A stretch of 64,000 nucleotides of DNA from Oscillospiraceae bacterium (lineage in GTDB: Bacteria > Bacillota > Clostridia > Oscillospirales > Acutalibacteraceae), in contig JALCPP010000001.1 in the NCBI GenBank assembly GCA_022650485.1, positions 248,001 to 312,000 of the forward strand. Reading direction: 5' to 3'. Of the stretch, positions 4,866 to 59,497 are shown one piece after another (position 1 is the stretch's first letter; each line of letters starts with the position of its first letter). A program made the translations under genes and the position numbers. The notes beneath the pieces are model-generated. The model worked only from the letters and a program-made list of their open reading frames with translations, was not told the DNA's origin and made no database searches.

Positions 4866-6137
4866 TTAGAGCTTTTCCAATGATCCACGGATATCGTTGA
4901 GAATATCTTCTACATTTTCAATTCCAACGGACATACGGATCATATTCGGACTGATACCGGCAGCCTTCAGCTGTTGTTCGTTCAGCTGGCGGTGCGTTGT
5001 GCTGGCAGGGTGAAGAACGCAGGTGCGCAAATCTGCGACATGAATGACAATAGAGGCGAGTTTCAGGTTTTCCATGAACTTTGCCGCCGCTTCTCTTCCA
5101 CCTTTTACCCCAAAGGAAATCACGCCGCAGGTGCCGTGGGGCATATATTTCATGGCTAGTTTATGATACTTGCTGCTTTCCAGTCCAGGGTAATTGACCC
5201 ATTCAATTTTATCGCTGTTTTCCAAGAACTGTGCAACTTTCATTGCATTGGAACAGTGACGTTCCATGCGAAGCGCAAGCGTTTCCAGGCCAAGATTCAA
5301 AAAGAAAGAATTCATTGGCGAAGACTGTGCGCCAAGGTCGCGCATTAAATGAACGCGTGCTTTCACAATATATGCGCTTTTGCCAAACGCTTTTGTATAG
5401 ATTGTGCCGTGATAGGATTCGTCGGGTTCGGTCAACATCGGGAATTTTCCGTTTTCCCAGTTGAATTTACCGCTGTCTACAATGACTCCGCCGATTTGCA
5501 GTGCATGACCATCCATATATTTGGTGGTAGAATGCACAACGATATCCGCTCCGAATTGGAAAGGATGGCAGTTAATCGGCGTTGGGAAGGTGTTGTCTAC
5601 AATCAGCGGAACCCCATGTGCATGGGCAGCTTTCGCAAACAGCTCCAAATCCGTTACAATCAGGGACGGATTTGAAAGGGTTTCTGCAAAAACACAGCGC
5701 GTATTCTCTTTGAATGCCGCATTCAATTCCTCTTCGGTACAATCAGCGGAAACAAAAGTGCATTCAATTCCCATTTCTCTCATTGTTTTATTAAATAAAT
5801 TAAATGTTCCGCCGTAAATTGCACTGCAGGCTACAAAATGGTCCCCCGCATGGCAGACATTCATCACAGACATCAGGGAAGCAGCCTGACCGGCGGAAGT
5901 CAGCAGTGCTCCTACGCCGCCTTCCAGAGCCGCAATTTTCTTTTCTACAGCATCGACGGTAGGATTGCTGATTCTGGTATAAAAAAAGCCGTCTGACTTT
6001 AAATCGAAGATTTCGCCAAGCTGCTGGGCACTGTCGTATTTAAAGGTTGTACTCTGAACTATCGGAAGGACTCTCGGTTCCCCATTTTTCGGTTCATATC
6101 CTGCATGAATACAGTCCGTATCAATATGATATCCCAT
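4866..6137 (-). CDS. metY: O-acetylhomoserine sulfhydrylase (aminocarboxypropyltransferase)
   Basis: PLP-dependent enzyme of 423 residues that makes homocysteine from O-acetylhomoserine and sulfide in direct sulfhydrylation for methionine synthesis. It shows the Cys/Met-metabolism PLP family signature, including TRISNPTVDAVEKKIAALEGG near residue 55-75, the aspartate in PLIVDNTF, and the Schiff-base lysine in VHSTTKYMDGH near residue 210. Length and the long insertion with TIYTKAFGKSAYIVKAR fit MetY rather than MetB/MetC. An AAGGAG site lies 12 bases before the ATG. No SAM riboswitch or T-box is visible in the 48-base gap upstream, so its control is not evident from sequence. Confidence 0.93.
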   Translation of the reverse strand: MGYHIDTDCIHAGYEPKNGEPRVLPIVQSTTFKYDSAQQLGEIFDLKSDGFFYTRISNPTVDAVEKKIAALEGGVGALLTSAGQAASLMSVMNVCHAGDHFVACSAIYGGTFNLFNKTMREMGIECTFVSADCTEEELNAAFKENTRCVFAETLSNPSLIVTDLELFAKAAHAHGVPLIVDNTFPTPINCHPFQFGADIVVHSTTKYMDGHALQIGGVIVDSGKFNWENGKFPMLTEPDESYHGTIYTKAFGKSAYIVKARVHLMRDLGAQSSPMNSFFLNLGLETLALRMERHCSNAMKVAQFLENSDKIEWVNYPGLESSKYHKLAMKYMPHGTCGVISFGVKGGREAAAKFMENLKLASIVIHVADLRTCVLHPASTTHRQLNEQQLKAAGISPNMIRMSVGIENVEDILNDIRGSLEKL

Positions 6138-53355: not shown

Positions 53356-53640
53356 TTGCCTGATTATATATATTGGATTTCCTATCTGATTATTATTAAT
53401 CTTATTTCCGCAGCAGCCACCAAATTGGACAAAAGCAGGGCCCGGCGACATCTGTGGAGAATTCCGGAAAGCAGGCTTTTATTACTGGCTGGACTCGGCG
53501 GATCCCCCGCCATGCTTTTTACCATGCTGTTAATCCGCCACAAAACAAAGCATGTGAAATTTATGGTTGGAATTCCGGTTATCATGCTGTTTCAGGCTTT
53601 CATTCTTTATGTCGGGTTTCAGCTTTTTCACCAGATGTAA
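53356..53640 (+). CDS. DUF1294 membrane protein
   Basis: Protein of 94 residues with three hydrophobic helices. YLIIINLISAAATKLDKSRARRHLWRIPES and GGSPAMLFTMLLIRHKTKHVKF carry the DUF1294 hallmarks (DK-R-A, WRIPE, GGS, RHKT). The start is TTG with GGGGGGA seven bases upstream; there is no ATG ahead of the conserved region. Function is unknown. Probably co-transcribed with the zinc-ribbon gene. Confidence 0.8.
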   Translation: MPDYIYWISYLIIINLISAAATKLDKSRARRHLWRIPESRLLLLAGLGGSPAMLFTMLLIRHKTKHVKFMVGIPVIMLFQAFILYVGFQLFHQM

Positions 53641-53724
53641 ACATGAAAAACTTTCTCTTCGGCTTTTCCGCCTGTTCAAGACGTATGAAAGCTCTGCAAA
53701 AAGCAAATATCGTCAAATTAAGCA

Positions 53725-53753
53725 TTGCTATTTAGTGATATTTTTGCTATACT
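53725..53753 (+). promoter_or_regulatory. Promoter in front of the opp leader
   Basis: TTGCTA (53725-53730), exact 17-base spacer, TATACT (53748-53753). Transcription would start near 53760, about 260 bases before the first opp gene. No better promoter is seen nearer to the gene. Confidence 0.6.
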
Positions 53754-53866
53754 ATTAAAGTTATTGAATTGTGCATACAGAAGTGTGCTTCAAAATTGCA
53801 GTTGAAACTGCTTTGTTTTTACATATTTTAAGTTTTATTTTTATTTATATTCCTGAATTTGTGATC

Positions 53867-53918
53867 ATGAGGATCGCTGTCTTGCCTGCAGGCATGATAG
53901 CGATTCTCATATTTTTTT
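53867..53918 (+). terminator. Intrinsic terminator inside the opp leader
   Basis: ATGAGGATCGCTGTC (53867-53881) pairs with GATAGCGATTCTCAT (53896-53910) with only G-U or single mismatches; the loop holds the palindrome GCCTGCAGGC, and ATTTTTTTGC follows. It lies between the likely promoter and the opp start, so it may act as an attenuator, or end a small RNA. The rest of 53641-54021 is A/T-rich, with a second weak hairpin (GCAGTTGAAACTGC, then TTTGTTTTT) near 53800. Confidence 0.75.
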
Positions 53919-54021
53919 GCTGAAAATTTGCTTACTTTATTTCACAATACACCGGATATGAACGCCGCTGATTAAAATGTACGGCATAAGATTTGAGGTA
54001 CAAAATGATAGGGGTTTTGCT

Positions 54022-55026
54022 ATGATAGAAAATCGAAAAACACAATTATTGAAAAAAACTGGTTTGCGTTTGCTGGGCTTCCTGTTTACAATGTTAATTC
54101 TTTCCATCGTTGTATTCTGCTTTGCAAGGTGGGCACCCGGAGACCCGCTGCAGTCTTTTTACGGTGATGCAGTCGAATCCATGACTTCTGAAGAGCTGGG
54201 CGCTGCCCGCAGCCGCCTTGGTTTAGACGCCCCGCTGCATGTGCAGTATGCCAAATGGGTTACAAACGCACTGGGCGGGAACTTCGGACTTTCTCTAAAA
54301 TACAAAAAAGCGGCAATGGATGTGGTGACTCCATTAATTGGGAACACCTTAATCTTAGGCGTCACCGCCTATCTGCTGGTATTTGCACTGGCAACCCTTT
54401 TGGCAGTTACCTGTGCATTGCATGAAGATACCTGGCTTGACCATATCATCTGCAAAATAGGGACAGGGATTTACTACCTCCCTCCCTTCTGGCTTGGTGT
54501 CGTTTTAGTGCTGATCTTCAGTATCCATTTAAGGTGGTTCCCCAGCAGCGGAGCATATGATATTGGAAAAGCCGGCGATATTTTGAACCGCATTCGTCAT
54601 ATGATTCTGCCGCTGATTGTAATGATTGTCAGCCACCTGTGGTATTACGCCTATATGATTCGAAATAAACTTCTGGACGAGCTCCGTCAGGATTATGTTT
54701 TTCTCGCAAAAGAAAAGGGATTGACAAAACGTCAAATCGTCTGGCGGCATTGTCTTCGCAACGTTGCCCCCACCATCGTCAGTATTATGGCTATCTCCAT
54801 TCCACATGTACTCAGCGGTACTTATATTGCGGAATCCGTCTTTAATTATCCTGGAATCGGCGCTCTGTCCATTGAGAGTGCAAAATATCATGATTACAAC
54901 TTACTCATGATTCTCGTGTTGATTGCGGGGGCTTTAGTTGTTTTGAGCAGCATCGCCGCGCAAACAATCAATGAGATCATTGACCCAAGAATGAAAGAAA
55001 CCGGGGTGTCTGCATGGCAAAGGTAG
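54022..55026 (+). CDS. Oligopeptide-type ABC transporter permease (OppB/DppB type)
   Basis: Membrane permease of about 334 residues. An N-terminal helix (LGFLFTMLILSIVVFCFARWAPGDP) and the binding-protein-dependent transport region with the EAA motif (LAKEKGLTKRQIVWRHCLRNV) identify it. Five further helices follow. ATG at 54022 has AGGGG seven bases ahead; in-frame starts from 53977 are less well supported. First gene of a five-gene importer operon for peptides or, in some relatives, nickel. Confidence 0.9.
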   Translation: MIENRKTQLLKKTGLRLLGFLFTMLILSIVVFCFARWAPGDPLQSFYGDAVESMTSEELGAARSRLGLDAPLHVQYAKWVTNALGGNFGLSLKYKKAAMDVVTPLIGNTLILGVTAYLLVFALATLLAVTCALHEDTWLDHIICKIGTGIYYLPPFWLGVVLVLIFSIHLRWFPSSGAYDIGKAGDILNRIRHMILPLIVMIVSHLWYYAYMIRNKLLDELRQDYVFLAKEKGLTKRQIVWRHCLRNVAPTIVSIMAISIPHVLSGTYIAESVFNYPGIGALSIESAKYHDYNLLMILVLIAGALVVLSSIAAQTINEIIDPRMKETGVSAWQR

Positions 55027-55919
55027 AGAATTCACGCTTTAGAAAAGTTGGCATTGGGTGGAAAAAGGTAGAGCCCGTCGCCCTGAAACCATCACTGAAA
55101 AAGCGTTTAAAAGGGAAACCTGTTTTTTCAGTGATCATTCTGCTTTTCATCGTAACCGGATGCCTCTTTGCCGGACAGCTGGCAAATCATGACCCCGGAA
55201 GTTTTTACCTTCAGAATGTAAATGAGGCCCCAAACGCTGAATTCTATTTTGGAACGGACTCTTTGGGGCGGGACATTTACTCTATGATTTGGTATGGAGG
55301 CAGAGTATCCATCTCCATCGGGCTTATGAGCATGGCAATTATCAGTGTGATTGGCATTACTTACGGATGTATCAGCGGCATTGCCAACGCTAAGATTGAC
55401 GCTCTGATGATGCGGATTGCAGAAATGGCGAACAGCATTCCAAACCTGCTGGTTATTTTGCTGCTGATGGCTGTCATCGGAAAGCAGGATGCCGTCACAC
55501 TCTCTTTTGTGATTGGTATAACCGGCTGGTTTGCGCTGGCCCGTATCGTGCGCAGTGAAGTACGCCAAATCCGCAACAGCGAATATGTCCTCGCCGCACG
55601 CCGCATGGGTGTCGGTTTCCCCCGGATTATGATTCGGCATCTTATTCCCAACTTTGTTTCTTCCATTATGTTTGTTGTCGTGTCTACCATCAGTTCCAGC
55701 ATGTCCATGGAATCGACGTTGAGCTTTCTGGGGCTGGGTTTACCGGTGGACGTTATCTCGTGGGGCAGTATGCTCTCCCTTGCCAATCGGGCACTTTTGC
55801 TTGATACATGGTGGGTCATTATCATCCCAGGTATCTTTTTATTAGTAACGTTGAACTGTATTACAAGCTTAGGAAATTTCTATCGAAAGGGGAATACAAA
55901 AAGGCACAGCAATTTGTAA
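55014..55919 (+). CDS. Oligopeptide-type ABC transporter permease (OppC/DppC type)
   Basis: Second permease, 301 residues. The family features FGTDSLGRDIYSMIWYGGRVSISIGL after the first helix and the EAA loop YVLAARRMGVGFPRIMIRHLIPN are clear, as is STLSFLGLGLP. It overlaps the first permease by 13 bases. A basic N-terminus precedes the first helix. Confidence 0.92.
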   Translation: MAKVENSRFRKVGIGWKKVEPVALKPSLKKRLKGKPVFSVIILLFIVTGCLFAGQLANHDPGSFYLQNVNEAPNAEFYFGTDSLGRDIYSMIWYGGRVSISIGLMSMAIISVIGITYGCISGIANAKIDALMMRIAEMANSIPNLLVILLLMAVIGKQDAVTLSFVIGITGWFALARIVRSEVRQIRNSEYVLAARRMGVGFPRIMIRHLIPNFVSSIMFVVVSTISSSMSMESTLSFLGLGLPVDVISWGSMLSLANRALLLDTWWVIIIPGIFLLVTLNCITSLGNFYRKGNTKRHSNL

Positions 55920-55969: not shown

Positions 55970-57568
55970 ATGATGAAAATGAAACTTAAAAAGGGAATAT
56001 GCCTGCTTTTGGCATGCGTAATGGTACTTTCTTTCGCCGCTTGTGGAAACAACAGCAGCAATGAAAGCAAACCGGCAGCCACTTCCGGCAGCGCGGATGA
56101 TTTATCTAACACCTTGGTTTACGCAGGTGAATCTGAAAGTACCATTAATCCGCTTTTAAACAGCCATGACGAACTGCCGGACTTAATTTTTTCCGGTCTG
56201 ATGAAGTATGACGGCAACGGAAAACCGGTTTACGACCTGGCAGAAAGTTCTACCTATGACGATGCCACGTACACTTATACCTTTAAACTTAGAAAAGGAA
56301 TTAAATGGCATGACGGAACGGATTTTTCAGCCGATGATGTCCTTTATACCTATAACGTCCTGACGAAGGATGAGACGTTATCTTCCAGCATTACAAGCAA
56401 TTATGAAGACATTGTCAGTATGACCGCACCGGATCAAAACACTGTTGTAATTAAACTGAGCCAATATGATGCCGCCATGATGGACTATTTTACAGTGGGA
56501 ATCCTGCCAAAACATCTGACGGAAGGCCAGGACATTAACACAATGGCCTTTAACCAGACTCCGGTTGGAACCGGCAGGTATAAATTTGTGAAATGGGATA
56601 CCGCCGGAGGCATGATCGTCCTGGAGCGCAACGAAGATTACTACGATAAGGTTCCGAATATTGAACGCGTTATTTATAAAACCGTATCAAATGAAAGCAC
56701 AAAAGCCACGATGCTCCAGTCAGGCGAAGCGGATTTGGCATGGCTTAACTCAAAATACGCAGACAGTTTCCGCAAAAACGACAGTTATAAAAATATTGAT
56801 TTTAAAACTGCTGATTACCGCGGCATATCCATGGACTTCGGAACTGAATTCTGGCAGAATAACGGGGATTCCATCGGCGTTTTAAACGATGCGATCGACA
56901 AGGAAGCAATCGTGAAAAGCGTGTTGGACGGCCACGGTGTCGCCGCTTACAGCCCCATTCAGCTCAATCGTTTTGGCGGAAATAAATCTGCGGATATCTA
57001 TTCCCATGACCTTCAGAAATTTGCAGAGGAAATGGCAAAATTGGGATGGGTCAAAGGCAGCGATGGAATCTATGAGCGCAATGGAGAAAAATTTCATTTT
57101 ACCGTTCAGGTTCGAGACTATGAAGAAGAGCGGGTCGATATCGCCAATCTGTGCGCCAGCCAGCTGAAAGCCGCCGGTGTTGATATGGAAGTAAAGCTCG
57201 TAACCAAATTTGACTGGGACGCCGGCTATAATGGATTCCTTTCAGGGTACGCGGCTCAGTTTGATCCTGACATGTTTTATAAGAACTATGTAACCGGAGC
57301 CAGCGATAATACCATGCAGTATTCCAACACCCGCGTGGACGAACTGCTGACAAACGGGCGGCATACCAAGGAAGAAAATAAGCGCAAAGAAATTTATCAG
57401 GAATTTGAAACGGTCTACGCAGAACAGCCCGGGGTCGTACTGGTTGCTTTTCTGGATGGGTGCTATGTCAGCGTGAAGGGACTGAACGGACTTGATACCA
57501 CACGTGTTTTGGGCCACCATGCTGTTGGCGTAATGTGGAATATAGAAAACTGGACTTTGAACAAATAA
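55970..57568 (+). CDS. Solute-binding lipoprotein (SBP_bac_5 family)
   Basis: Extracellular binding protein of 532 residues. The signal peptide ends in the lipobox SFAAC, followed by an Asn/Ser-rich linker. The mature part has TYTFKLRKGIKWHDGTDFSADDVLYTY, the family signature, and VGTGRYKFVKW. Ligand could be oligopeptide, nickel chelate or other; nothing in the sequence decides. AAGGAGG precedes the ATG. The position after both permeases and before both ATPases is typical of clostridial opp-like operons. Confidence 0.92.
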   Translation: MMKMKLKKGICLLLACVMVLSFAACGNNSSNESKPAATSGSADDLSNTLVYAGESESTINPLLNSHDELPDLIFSGLMKYDGNGKPVYDLAESSTYDDATYTYTFKLRKGIKWHDGTDFSADDVLYTYNVLTKDETLSSSITSNYEDIVSMTAPDQNTVVIKLSQYDAAMMDYFTVGILPKHLTEGQDINTMAFNQTPVGTGRYKFVKWDTAGGMIVLERNEDYYDKVPNIERVIYKTVSNESTKATMLQSGEADLAWLNSKYADSFRKNDSYKNIDFKTADYRGISMDFGTEFWQNNGDSIGVLNDAIDKEAIVKSVLDGHGVAAYSPIQLNRFGGNKSADIYSHDLQKFAEEMAKLGWVKGSDGIYERNGEKFHFTVQVRDYEEERVDIANLCASQLKAAGVDMEVKLVTKFDWDAGYNGFLSGYAAQFDPDMFYKNYVTGASDNTMQYSNTRVDELLTNGRHTKEENKRKEIYQEFETVYAEQPGVVLVAFLDGCYVSVKGLNGLDTTRVLGHHAVGVMWNIENWTLNK

Positions 57569-57584: not shown

Positions 57585-58601
57585 ATGGGAACGATTTTAG
57601 AAGTAAAGAACTATTCCCTCAGCTTTGATACACCCGAGGGAGAAATTGAAGCCGTAAGAGATGTAAACTTTTCCCTTAACGAAGGTGAAATACTAGCCAT
57701 TGTAGGGGAATCAGGCTGTGGAAAAACGGTACTCTGCAAATCCCTTTTAAAACTTCTGCCGCGAAATGCAAGGGTAAAAAGCGGAAAAGCCGAACTTTGT
57801 GGGGAAAACATCACCGCTTTTTCAGAACGCCGGATGCGACAATTACGCGGAAAACAAATTTCCATGGTGTTTCAAGATCCCCTGACTACATTGAATCCGA
57901 CCATTCCCATCGGGAAGCAAATCACAGAATCGATTCGACAGCATCAAAAAATAAGCCATAATAAGGCAAAAGCGCATGCCTTAGAATTACTGGAACTGGT
58001 TGGAATTGACCACGCCGCAGACCGTTTTAATCTGCAGCCCCATTTTTTTTCAGGCGGAATGCGGCAAAGGTGTGTGCTGGCAATTGCGCTTGCCTCACAC
58101 CCCAAAGTCCTTCTGGCCGACGAACCCACAACCGCATTGGATGTTACCGTACAGGCTAAAATGCTGGATTTGCTGCTGTCAATCCGAAAAAGGACCGGAA
58201 TCGCAATTCTCTTTGTCTCTCATGATTTGGGCGTAGTCGCAAGAATTGCAGATCGCGTTGCGGTCATGTATGCGGGAAAAATTGTTGAGATCGGTACTGC
58301 AAATGAAATTTTCTATGACTCCAGACACCCTTATACCTGGGGGCTGCTGGGGGCTCAGCCCGCTTTGGCAATGAAAACCGGTGAACTTCACAGCATACCG
58401 GGGATGCCCCCGGTATTACTCAATCCACCACCCGGAGACACGTTTGCCGTTCGCAACAAATATGCCCTGGCAATCGACTATGAAGAAGCCCCGCCAATGT
58501 TTCAAATTTCCCCGACACATTTCGCCGCGACCTGGCTGCTTGACCCGCGCGCACCCCACATTGATCCGCCAATTTTCACCAAAAGGAGACGGGAAGAATG
58601 A
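57585..58601 (+). CDS. Oligopeptide-type ABC transporter ATP-binding protein (OppD/DppD type)
   Basis: ATPase of 338 residues. Walker A GESGCGKTVLCKSLL, signature FSGGMRQRCVLAIAL, Walker B VLLADEPTTALDVTVQ and the C-terminal family extension with HPYTWGLLGAQP are present. The usual iron-sulfur or cysteine-rich C-terminus of some OppD proteins is absent. It overlaps the next gene by four bases (ATGA). Confidence 0.93.
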   Translation: MGTILEVKNYSLSFDTPEGEIEAVRDVNFSLNEGEILAIVGESGCGKTVLCKSLLKLLPRNARVKSGKAELCGENITAFSERRMRQLRGKQISMVFQDPLTTLNPTIPIGKQITESIRQHQKISHNKAKAHALELLELVGIDHAADRFNLQPHFFSGGMRQRCVLAIALASHPKVLLADEPTTALDVTVQAKMLDLLLSIRKRTGIAILFVSHDLGVVARIADRVAVMYAGKIVEIGTANEIFYDSRHPYTWGLLGAQPALAMKTGELHSIPGMPPVLLNPPPGDTFAVRNKYALAIDYEEAPPMFQISPTHFAATWLLDPRAPHIDPPIFTKRRREE

Positions 58602-59497
58602 ACCAAACGGCGATACTGGAAGTCAAAAATCTGAAGCAATACTTCCCTGTCAGCAAACATTTAACCGTGAAAGCGGTGGACGATATCAGCTTTCAGATAC
58701 GGAAAGGTGAAATTTTTGGGCTTGTGGGCGAAAGTGGTTCCGGCAAATCCACGGTGGCCCGCTCTATTATGGGACTCTATCAATTGACGGATGGTGAAGT
58801 CTGGTTTCAGGGAAATAAGATATCAGACCCCAAAGTCTTTCGCAGCAACAGACGCGACATACAAAAAAATATGCAAATTATCTTTCAGGATTCCGCAGCC
58901 GCTCTGAATCCCAGAATGACAGTGCGGAATATTATCGCCGAGCCGATGCAGGCCTGCCGTATGTTTGTAAAAAACAAAGAAGCAATGGATGCAAAAATCG
59001 ACAAGCTGTTAGACCAAGTTGGTTTGGCAAAAAGTTTTCGTTCAAGATATCCCGGTGAACTTTCCGGCGGACAGCGCCAAAGGGTTGCCATTGCAAGAAG
59101 CATAGGAACAAATCCTGATATTATCATTGCAGATGAGCCAATCGCCTCTTTGGATGTGTCCATTCAGGCGCAGATTCTTACATTATTTCAAAACCTTCAG
59201 CAGGAATACGGGTTTGCATTTCTTTTTATTGCGCATGATCTTTCTGTGGTACGGTTCCTCAGCAATACAGTCGGAGTTATGCTGCATGGTAAAATTTTAG
59301 AAATGGCTGAAACGGAAGAACTGTTTCAAAACCCGCTTCATCCCTACACAAAGGCTTTGTTATCCGCCGTTCCTGTGGCAGACCCAATCTATGAGCGAAG
59401 CAAAAAAATCCTGTATTATGACCCGAGCAAACTCTCTTTAACCGGTTCATTGCAACAACTGTCCCCAAAGCACTGGATGTTTTGTTCACCAAAATAA
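58598..59497 (+). CDS. Oligopeptide-type ABC transporter ATP-binding protein (OppF/DppF type)
   Basis: ATPase of 299 residues, the partner of the preceding gene. Walker A GESGSGKSTVARSIM, signature LSGGQRQRVAIARSI, Walker B IIIADEPIASLDVSIQ, and HPYTKALLSAVPV are clear. AAAGGAG precedes the ATG. It ends the operon and is followed by a very long hairpin. Confidence 0.93.
   Translation: MNQTAILEVKNLKQYFPVSKHLTVKAVDDISFQIRKGEIFGLVGESGSGKSTVARSIMGLYQLTDGEVWFQGNKISDPKVFRSNRRDIQKNMQIIFQDSAAALNPRMTVRNIIAEPMQACRMFVKNKEAMDAKIDKLLDQVGLAKSFRSRYPGELSGGQRQRVAIARSIGTNPDIIIADEPIASLDVSIQAQILTLFQNLQQEYGFAFLFIAHDLSVVRFLSNTVGVMLHGKILEMAETEELFQNPLHPYTKALLSAVPVADPIYERSKKILYYDPSKLSLTGSLQQLSPKHWMFCSPK

Follow-up and report, generated by a model that had tools for sequence, protein, structure and literature searches.

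A putative ANTAR-like dual-hairpin transcription attenuator in front of a peptide/nickel-type ABC operon of an Oscillospiraceae bacterium

The NiCo (czcD) riboswitch is a nickel- and cobalt-responsive leader RNA of Firmicutes, built around a four-way junction and found mainly on exporters. Tandem small hairpins with ACGR loops are typical of the guanidine-II (mini-ykkC) riboswitch, and the core of CsrA sites is GGA. The targets of ANTAR proteins, as presented in the part of PMC3369931 consulted, comprise two small stem-loops with hexanucleotide loops carrying A1 and G4, the second stem-loop being mutually exclusive with a terminator. For nickel and cobalt uptake, regulation independent of NikR was inferred in PMC2667541 (part consulted), and how such uptake is controlled in Bacillota without NikR is the question addressed by the leader described here. 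Our search of open-licence papers found no description of a leader of this kind, none was found in the consulted parts of the transcriptome papers PMC5651825 and PMC12456013, and the terms nickel, cobalt and ABC transporter are absent from the main text of the 2010 candidate-RNA list (PMC2864571).

The window, i.e., the whole stretch of DNA analysed, is 64,000 nucleotides long (G000:C1:248001-312000, G000 being the genome that carries it). It contains a five-gene peptide/nickel-type ABC operon on the + strand, starting at 54022 and separated from the upstream DUF1294 gene by a gap of 381 bases on the same strand, in which the following features were located:

53356-53640, + strand: upstream gene DUF1294 (PF06961), by profile
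53725-53753, + strand: promoter-like site, TTGCTA, 17 nt, TATACT, with TG before the -10 (9 of 12 matches; a class of site not above chance)
53773-53788, + strand: P1 hairpin, GCAUAC-AGAA-GUGUGC, the first NGAA-type hairpin, by sequence and folding
53798-53811, + strand: extra hairpin, GCAGU-UGAA-ACUGC, followed by TTTGTTTTT, by sequence, terminator scan and folding
53861-53877, + strand: P2 hairpin, GUGAUC-AUGAG-GAUCGC, the proposed antiterminator, by sequence, folding and descriptor
53867-53910, + strand: intrinsic terminator stem-loop (-30.4 kcal/mol, z -5.6)
53912-53918, + strand: T7 tract of the terminator, one A away from the stem-loop, by sequence
54022-55026, + strand: first permease, BPD_transp_1 (best NCBIfam models Opp4B, Opp2B, Opp1B and NikB, all under their cut-offs)
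55014-55919, + strand: second permease, by profile
55970-57568, + strand: solute-binding protein SBP_bac_5 (Opp4A and NikA models under their cut-offs)
57585-58601, + strand: OppD/NikD-type ATPase, by profile
58598-59497, + strand: OppF/NikE-type ATPase, by profile

As all NCBIfam matches fall below their cut-offs, they do not fix the substrate of this transporter. An earlier sequence-only reading had pointed out a strong hairpin with seven T residues between a promoter and the first permease, and this proved correct: the stem-loop folds at -30.4 kcal/mol, shuffled versions average -14.9 (sd 2.75) with none of 200 equalling it, and the tract lies 103 bases from the permease ATG. The 171-nt leader as a whole gave a folding z of -4.3. 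When the leader is taken only up to 53880, its fold consists of P1, the extra hairpin and P2 and is no better than that of shuffled sequences (z -0.23). Bases 53867-53877 are common to P2 and to the 5' arm of the terminator, and the two structures are therefore mutually exclusive, one at a time. A simple terminator scanner did not list the stem-loop at 53867-53910, probably because of its internal mismatch, and flagged instead the weaker terminator-like hairpin at 53798-53811, which may be a second NGAA-type hairpin or a weak early terminator, providing a second early stop.

The description of the site at 53725 as the only good promoter holds in part, the site being present, but an equal match (9 of 12) lies within the leader at 53802-53829, and neither exceeds chance, with 6 such sites per 2.4 kb against 4.3 (sd 2.0) expected. 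In the scan of the + strand from 53919 to 54021, a weak method, no site passed, so that the separate promoter which might have served the operon downstream of the terminator did not appear there. The statement that no known riboswitch can be recognised also stands, since the Rfam search of the whole window at the gathering threshold gave 0 matches, a permissive search limited to 53640-54060 yielded 10 matches, each far under its gathering score, and searches of 10 and then 13 related loci found no family at gathering score at the leader.

We regard as reasonably probable that the leader is a cis-acting dual-hairpin transcription attenuator, ANTAR-like in its logic, in which a factor holds P1 and P2 and so controls a nickel/cobalt-type uptake operon. 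RNA polymerase would start near 53760, as we infer from the promoter-like site, and would make P1, then P2 and then the terminator. P1 and P2 are weak alone and the terminator is strong, which would make termination the default and implies that something must hold P2; by default the much more stable terminator would prevail and transcription would end near 53918, yielding a product of about 160 nt that may in addition serve as a small RNA. A factor gripping both P1 and P2 through their small NGAA-type loops would prevent the terminator from forming and allow the operon to be transcribed. Judged by the genes that carry this layout elsewhere, the operon would be part of a regulon for nickel/cobalt-type uptake, with a switch that most likely opens under metal shortage. 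Since the targets are uptake genes, binding by a protein under metal scarcity would be the most economical explanation.

The comparison with relatives started from the first permease, with which genome contigs were scanned; the best 80 of the 249 relatives obtained were used (L005-L084). Among them, P2 with its terminator recurs before orthologous operons. The permease of Faecalispora jeddahensis (L005) is 83% identical to the first permease of the window, and a P2 and a terminator lie between larB (LarB profile 288 bits, cut-off 175) and this permease, in the same place as in the window, where the two leaders align. Its P2, GUGACC-AAGAG-GGUCGC, differs from that of the window by a change of U-A to C-G. 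A P1-like hairpin, GCACGC-AGAA-GCGUGC, shows a change of A-U to G-C relative to the P1 of the window; it is situated at 5805-5820 within the last codons of larB (5052-5825), and its likeness to P1 may therefore be due to chance. A further terminator, which carries GUACC-UGAA-GGUAU and was not scored by the descriptor, stands before larB in the same locus.

Twelve other relatives (L006, L007, L008, L009, L011, L013, L014, L016, L020, L021, L026 and L029), from lineages including Desulfosporosinus, Acetobacterium, Sporomusa and others, carry CC-AYGRA-GG on the 5' arm of a terminator that precedes the permease, or the methyltransferase or DUF3842 gene upstream of it, and CCAYGAAGG, which forms a hairpin by itself, is the P2 of these leaders. 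In total, such leaders were recognised before this operon in 20 of 81 loci (the window and L005-L084), six of them by the descriptor. Only two of 60 relatives were matched by the leader DNA in a BLAST search, in each case weakly and over a short length, and the leader was absent in this search from all three other genomes of the window's genus. At positions 5201-5255 of L019 a leader before a methyltransferase gene shows a long-stem variant of P2, CGCAAUGC-UGAA-GCAUUGCG, which the covariance models did not list.

Covariation in the P2 helix was scored in twelve leaders (alignment A3), which had been found by motif and terminator and aligned once P2 was known, the motif including the inner pairs of P2; the score was 0.513 against 0.250 for shuffled alignments, with none of 500 shuffles equal, and the terminator helix in the same twelve leaders scored 0.385 against 0.259. 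For P1 and P2 together, in a set of 22 leaders whose P1 rows were selected for pairing, two-sided changes were observed in 11 of 12 pairs (score 0.867, against 0.216 when shuffled and at most 0.135 when slid).

The spread of the layout was assessed with covariance models. The first, R1, was built from 12 rows, with L005a (misaligned), L005b, L016, L021, L026 and L031 omitted, and matched 42 of the 391 Clostridia genomes searched at E 0.01. Fifty of the 60 R1 class matches were read, and P2 was present by an RNA-only rule in 28; by reading of the neighbours, 26 of these stand before a gene for transport, a methyltransferase or FmdE, or before the operon of such a gene (for L140 and L145, counted among the 26, only the second gene is visible), and the other two lie before a radical SAM gene (L130) and before no clear gene (L107). 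Among the 22 P2-negative matches, L100, L117, L126, L128 and L141 precede the same kinds of genes and the other 17 look like ordinary terminators.

Run at E 0.01 on 394 genomes of the window's order, the second model, R2 (54 rows), matched 20, many of its matches being ordinary terminators by reading; at E 0.001 it matched 69 of 398 genomes of a phylum-wide draw, with up to 9 matches per genome when antisense matches at the same place are counted. Thirty phylum loci, and copies in ten regions, were read; P2 was found in 30 of 30, and by reading 19 precede transporter (11), CobN (4) or methyltransferase (4) genes, the methyltransferase being in one case the first clear gene, 549 bases downstream. 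The remaining 11 stand before MinD-type ATPase (two), HdrA-like (one) or NikL-like genes below cut-off (two), before an OppF-like ATPase 996 bases on (one), or before genes that are unclear (five). The phylum set is not wholly independent, because a contig of genome G1097 equals that of L011 in length and has the same leaders, and L011 was in the training. A small number of rows in alignments A5 and A6 are antisense or nearly duplicated (L243 is a repeat of L011, and L229 of a copy in L239).

The frequency of P1 is a fairer test of that hairpin than the covariation. An upstream NGAA-type hairpin of at least 6 pairs occurs in 16 of 45 P2-positive matches, whereas shuffling gives a mean of 0.9 (maximum 3 in 60 shuffles). 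Under the same rule it occurs in 13 of the 26 distinct leaders that the phylum search provided, with a model that excludes P1 (shuffle mean 0.62, maximum 4 in 100 shuffles); the latter count becomes 14 of 26 when the loop rule is widened by CGGA, a change made after L227 had been seen. A P1-type hairpin is also present in 5 of 25 P2-negative matches, three of which (L117, L128 and L141) precede the same kinds of genes.

Several observations concern the arrangement of copies. Two tandem P2-terminator units stand before one gene in L117 (1442-1553), L204 (1501-1731) and L241 (4433-4556). In two genomes (L236-L239) several leader copies occur per 20-35 kb, before Opp-type, FmdE, ZnuA-like or DUF3842 units, and three copies in L239 share the leader plus the preceding bases. 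A 6S RNA (RF00013, 64.3 bits) was found at 2610-2785 of L138, outside the leader and about 1.1 kb or less from the ECF S leader.

The downstream genes were identified further by profile: CbiM in L098, L103, L119, L126, L218 and L226; SBP_bac_5 in L100, L016 and L224 (in L100 and L016 the best NCBIfam models are those of NikA, below cut-off); an Opp-type permease in L203; the ECF S component PF12822 in L211 and in a fragment of the L097 protein; FmdE in L236 and in a fragment of the L102 protein; Peripla_BP_2 in L106, L129 and L222, and ZnuA in L236; CobN in L204 and L227; and methyltransferases in L131, L202, L209 and L225. The PDGLE domain, which we take to mark NikN, is fused to CbiM in L098, L119 and L126 and encoded next door in L103 and L221. 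In the consulted part of PMC2667541, CbiN is described as the partner for cobalt and NikN as that for nickel. As CobN and CbiM leave cobalt possible, we use the wording nickel/cobalt-type. Three identifications were not retained: CooC, considered for the ATPase behind L206 and L207, which is of MinD/CbiA type with NCBIfam matches below cut-offs; NikL for L215 (34.6 of 100 bits, below cut-off); and HdrA for L216, a partial protein with 623 of 1100 bits, likewise below cut-off.

The most viable alternative, which we nevertheless consider unlikely, is a protein-free riboswitch, whose two NGAA loops would bind Ni2+/Co2+ or a metal chelate directly. In its favour, the target genes indicate one ligand class, and 5 of 24 carrier genomes have no domain over cut-off of ANTAR, the only protein class known to act by this logic. 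Against it, P1 was not recognised in 26 of the 45 P2-positive leaders, nor, with at least 4 pairs, in 10 of the 26 phylum leaders. Its distance from P2 varies from 31 to 136 nt, and the conserved positions are limited to a few bases of the loops, which are tetra- or pentaloops of NGAA type, mostly ending in GAA (29 of 30 P2 loops in the phylum loci) and closed mostly by C-G. Such variable spacing, so few conserved bases and a P1 that often goes unrecognised are unlike a compact aptamer, and an antiterminator held by metal would turn uptake on when metal is present.

The second alternative is that the hairpin is a plain intrinsic terminator, ending the DUF1294 transcript or none in particular, and that the operon promoter lies elsewhere. 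The stop codon of DUF1294, on the same strand, lies 226 nt before the start of the terminator, the upstream promoter does not exceed chance, and R3, a covariance model made from 90 matches with the window and L005 excluded, detects neither the leader of the window nor that of L005, which lack the sequence core CC-AYGAA-GG. The core of P2 in the window is UC-AUGAG-GA and would fail a strict GAA-loop rule, and the scores of the window with the other models (34.9 bits for R1 and 27.6 bits for R2) were obtained with the window in the training of both. Against this alternative, a descriptor run on 993 other terminators of the window and L005-L084 found a P2-like hairpin on the 5' arm in 18 and P1 as well in just 3, figures that serve as a background rate rather than as a blind prediction, since the loop rule was drafted with the loops of the window and L005 in view, both of which carry P1 and P2 by this descriptor. 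The true background is lower, as 6 of the 18 (L019, L038, L045, L047, L049 and L053) and 2 of the 3 (L038 and L053) stand before this operon family, the six including cases before its methyltransferase. The gene upstream of the leader also differs, being DUF1294 in the window and larB in Faecalispora, and the scan of 53919-54021 offered no substitute promoter. Because the leader tracks the operon and not the upstream gene, and has a P2 and a P1 that are conserved elsewhere, a mere DUF1294 terminator is quite unlikely.

We therefore return to the attenuator and judge the leader of the window to be a diverged member of the class. This assignment is made by architecture (P2, with an NGAA/AYGRR-type loop, shares bases with the 5' arm of the terminator, and a second NGAA-type hairpin, P1, lies upstream), by position before an operon that has core-class leaders elsewhere (L006-L009, L011, L013, L014, L016, L020, L021 and L029), by the orthology of that operon and by the P2 change in Faecalispora. 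The attenuator layout proposed from the sequence is thus supported by the other lineages, in which P2 excludes the terminator and P1 lies upstream.

Repressor sites in the DNA, with the inverted repeats acting as operators and not as RNA hairpins, are highly improbable: G-tract palindromes do occur at the promoter of the same operon in other lineages, but hairpins with reversed loops and at least 6 pairs were found in 0 of 45 P2-positive matches and 0 of 26 phylum leaders, and a loop that stays constant and asymmetric in a constant orientation, while the stems vary with compensation, indicates RNA rather than a DNA operator. These G-tract palindromes, which presumably resemble operators of CsoR/RcnR type, are found near the promoter of the orthologous operon or methyltransferase instead of the leader in Blautia (L012 and L015), L017, L018, L039, L040 and L051, and lineages seem to swap attenuator for repressor before this operon. 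A strict ANTAR-target RNA read by an ANTAR protein is similarly very hard to sustain, as the two-hairpin logic with its exclusive terminator (PMC3369931, part consulted) and the one ANTAR domain over cut-off in G000 are set against loops of four or five bases, mostly ending in GAA, in place of six-base A1/G4 loops, and against the 5 of 24 carriers with no domain over cut-off, among them G177, G201 and G377, which have high-scoring leader copies. A leader peptide (ATG AAG GTG ...) was also rejected, ACG replacing ATG in 12 of 30 P2 loops.

One gene family accompanies the leader. DUF3842 was found in every chosen carrier (24 of 24 and 30 of 30, together 54 of 54), compared with 12 of 26 and 15 of 30 other genomes (27 of 56), giving a pooled Fisher p of 3e-11, uncorrected for phylogeny. 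The carriers were G000 with 23 of the 42 R1 genomes and 30 of the 69 phylum genomes, and the non-carriers were likewise chosen, the first set being mostly close relatives of G000, so that the samples differ in ancestry. Leader copies stand directly before a DUF3842 gene in L011, L014 and L237. The predicted structure (seven sequences, pLDDT 88.8) is Rossmann-like, with a best listed PDB TM of 0.54; no RNA-binding relative is among the best 50 PDB matches listed for the model, the sequence itself gave no PDB match, and DUF3842 was not mentioned in the open-licence literature searched. It may be a member of the regulon rather than its sensor, and a sensor role stays a guess.

In the genome of the window itself, an ECF S-like component comes directly after DUF3842 in L146 (G000:C8:30978-31361 and flanks). 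The leader of this locus has no T tract, finishes with CCGCC-UGAAA-GGCGG close to the ribosome site and is perhaps a translational version.

The leader is compact, absent from Rfam 15 and placed before CbiM/PDGLE, Nik/Opp-type, ECF, FmdE, CobN and LarB genes, which makes these a candidate regulon, and it offers a switch that can be tested directly in acetogens and other anaerobes with nickel-dependent key enzymes. Tentatively, and with more doubt than confidence, we suggest that it may represent a new metal-responsive antitermination class, in which an undescribed RNA-binding sensor would recognise the tandem NGAA hairpins when nickel/cobalt is short and would so take the place of NikR in many Bacillota. 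DUF3842, which hereby gains its first functional context, would be the first candidate for that sensor.

Among the known systems, the NiCo (czcD) riboswitch matched neither the window nor any of the loci searched with Rfam. Guanidine-II (mini-ykkC) has no match in the window or in the 13 loci, and its loop, closing pair and target genes presumably differ from those of the class described here. CsrA sites of the TwoAYGGAY type were rejected, since 29 of 30 P2 loops have GAA and not GGA and RF01731 has no match in 13 loci. The repression of nikABCDE by NikR likely does the same physiological job, but NikR is a DNA repressor, and it was set aside as the regulator here, NikR_C not being found in 21 of 24 carrier genomes, that of the window included. 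The nearest parallel is the ANTAR dual hairpin of EutV/eutP and NasR/nasF: as there, the second hairpin of the window is mutually exclusive with a terminator, and, unlike there, the loops of the class are not A1/G4 hexanucleotides. As far as its sequence and the comparison with other lineages can tell, the leader would therefore work like an ANTAR target without being one by its loops, and it is this attenuator reading that the comparison supports.
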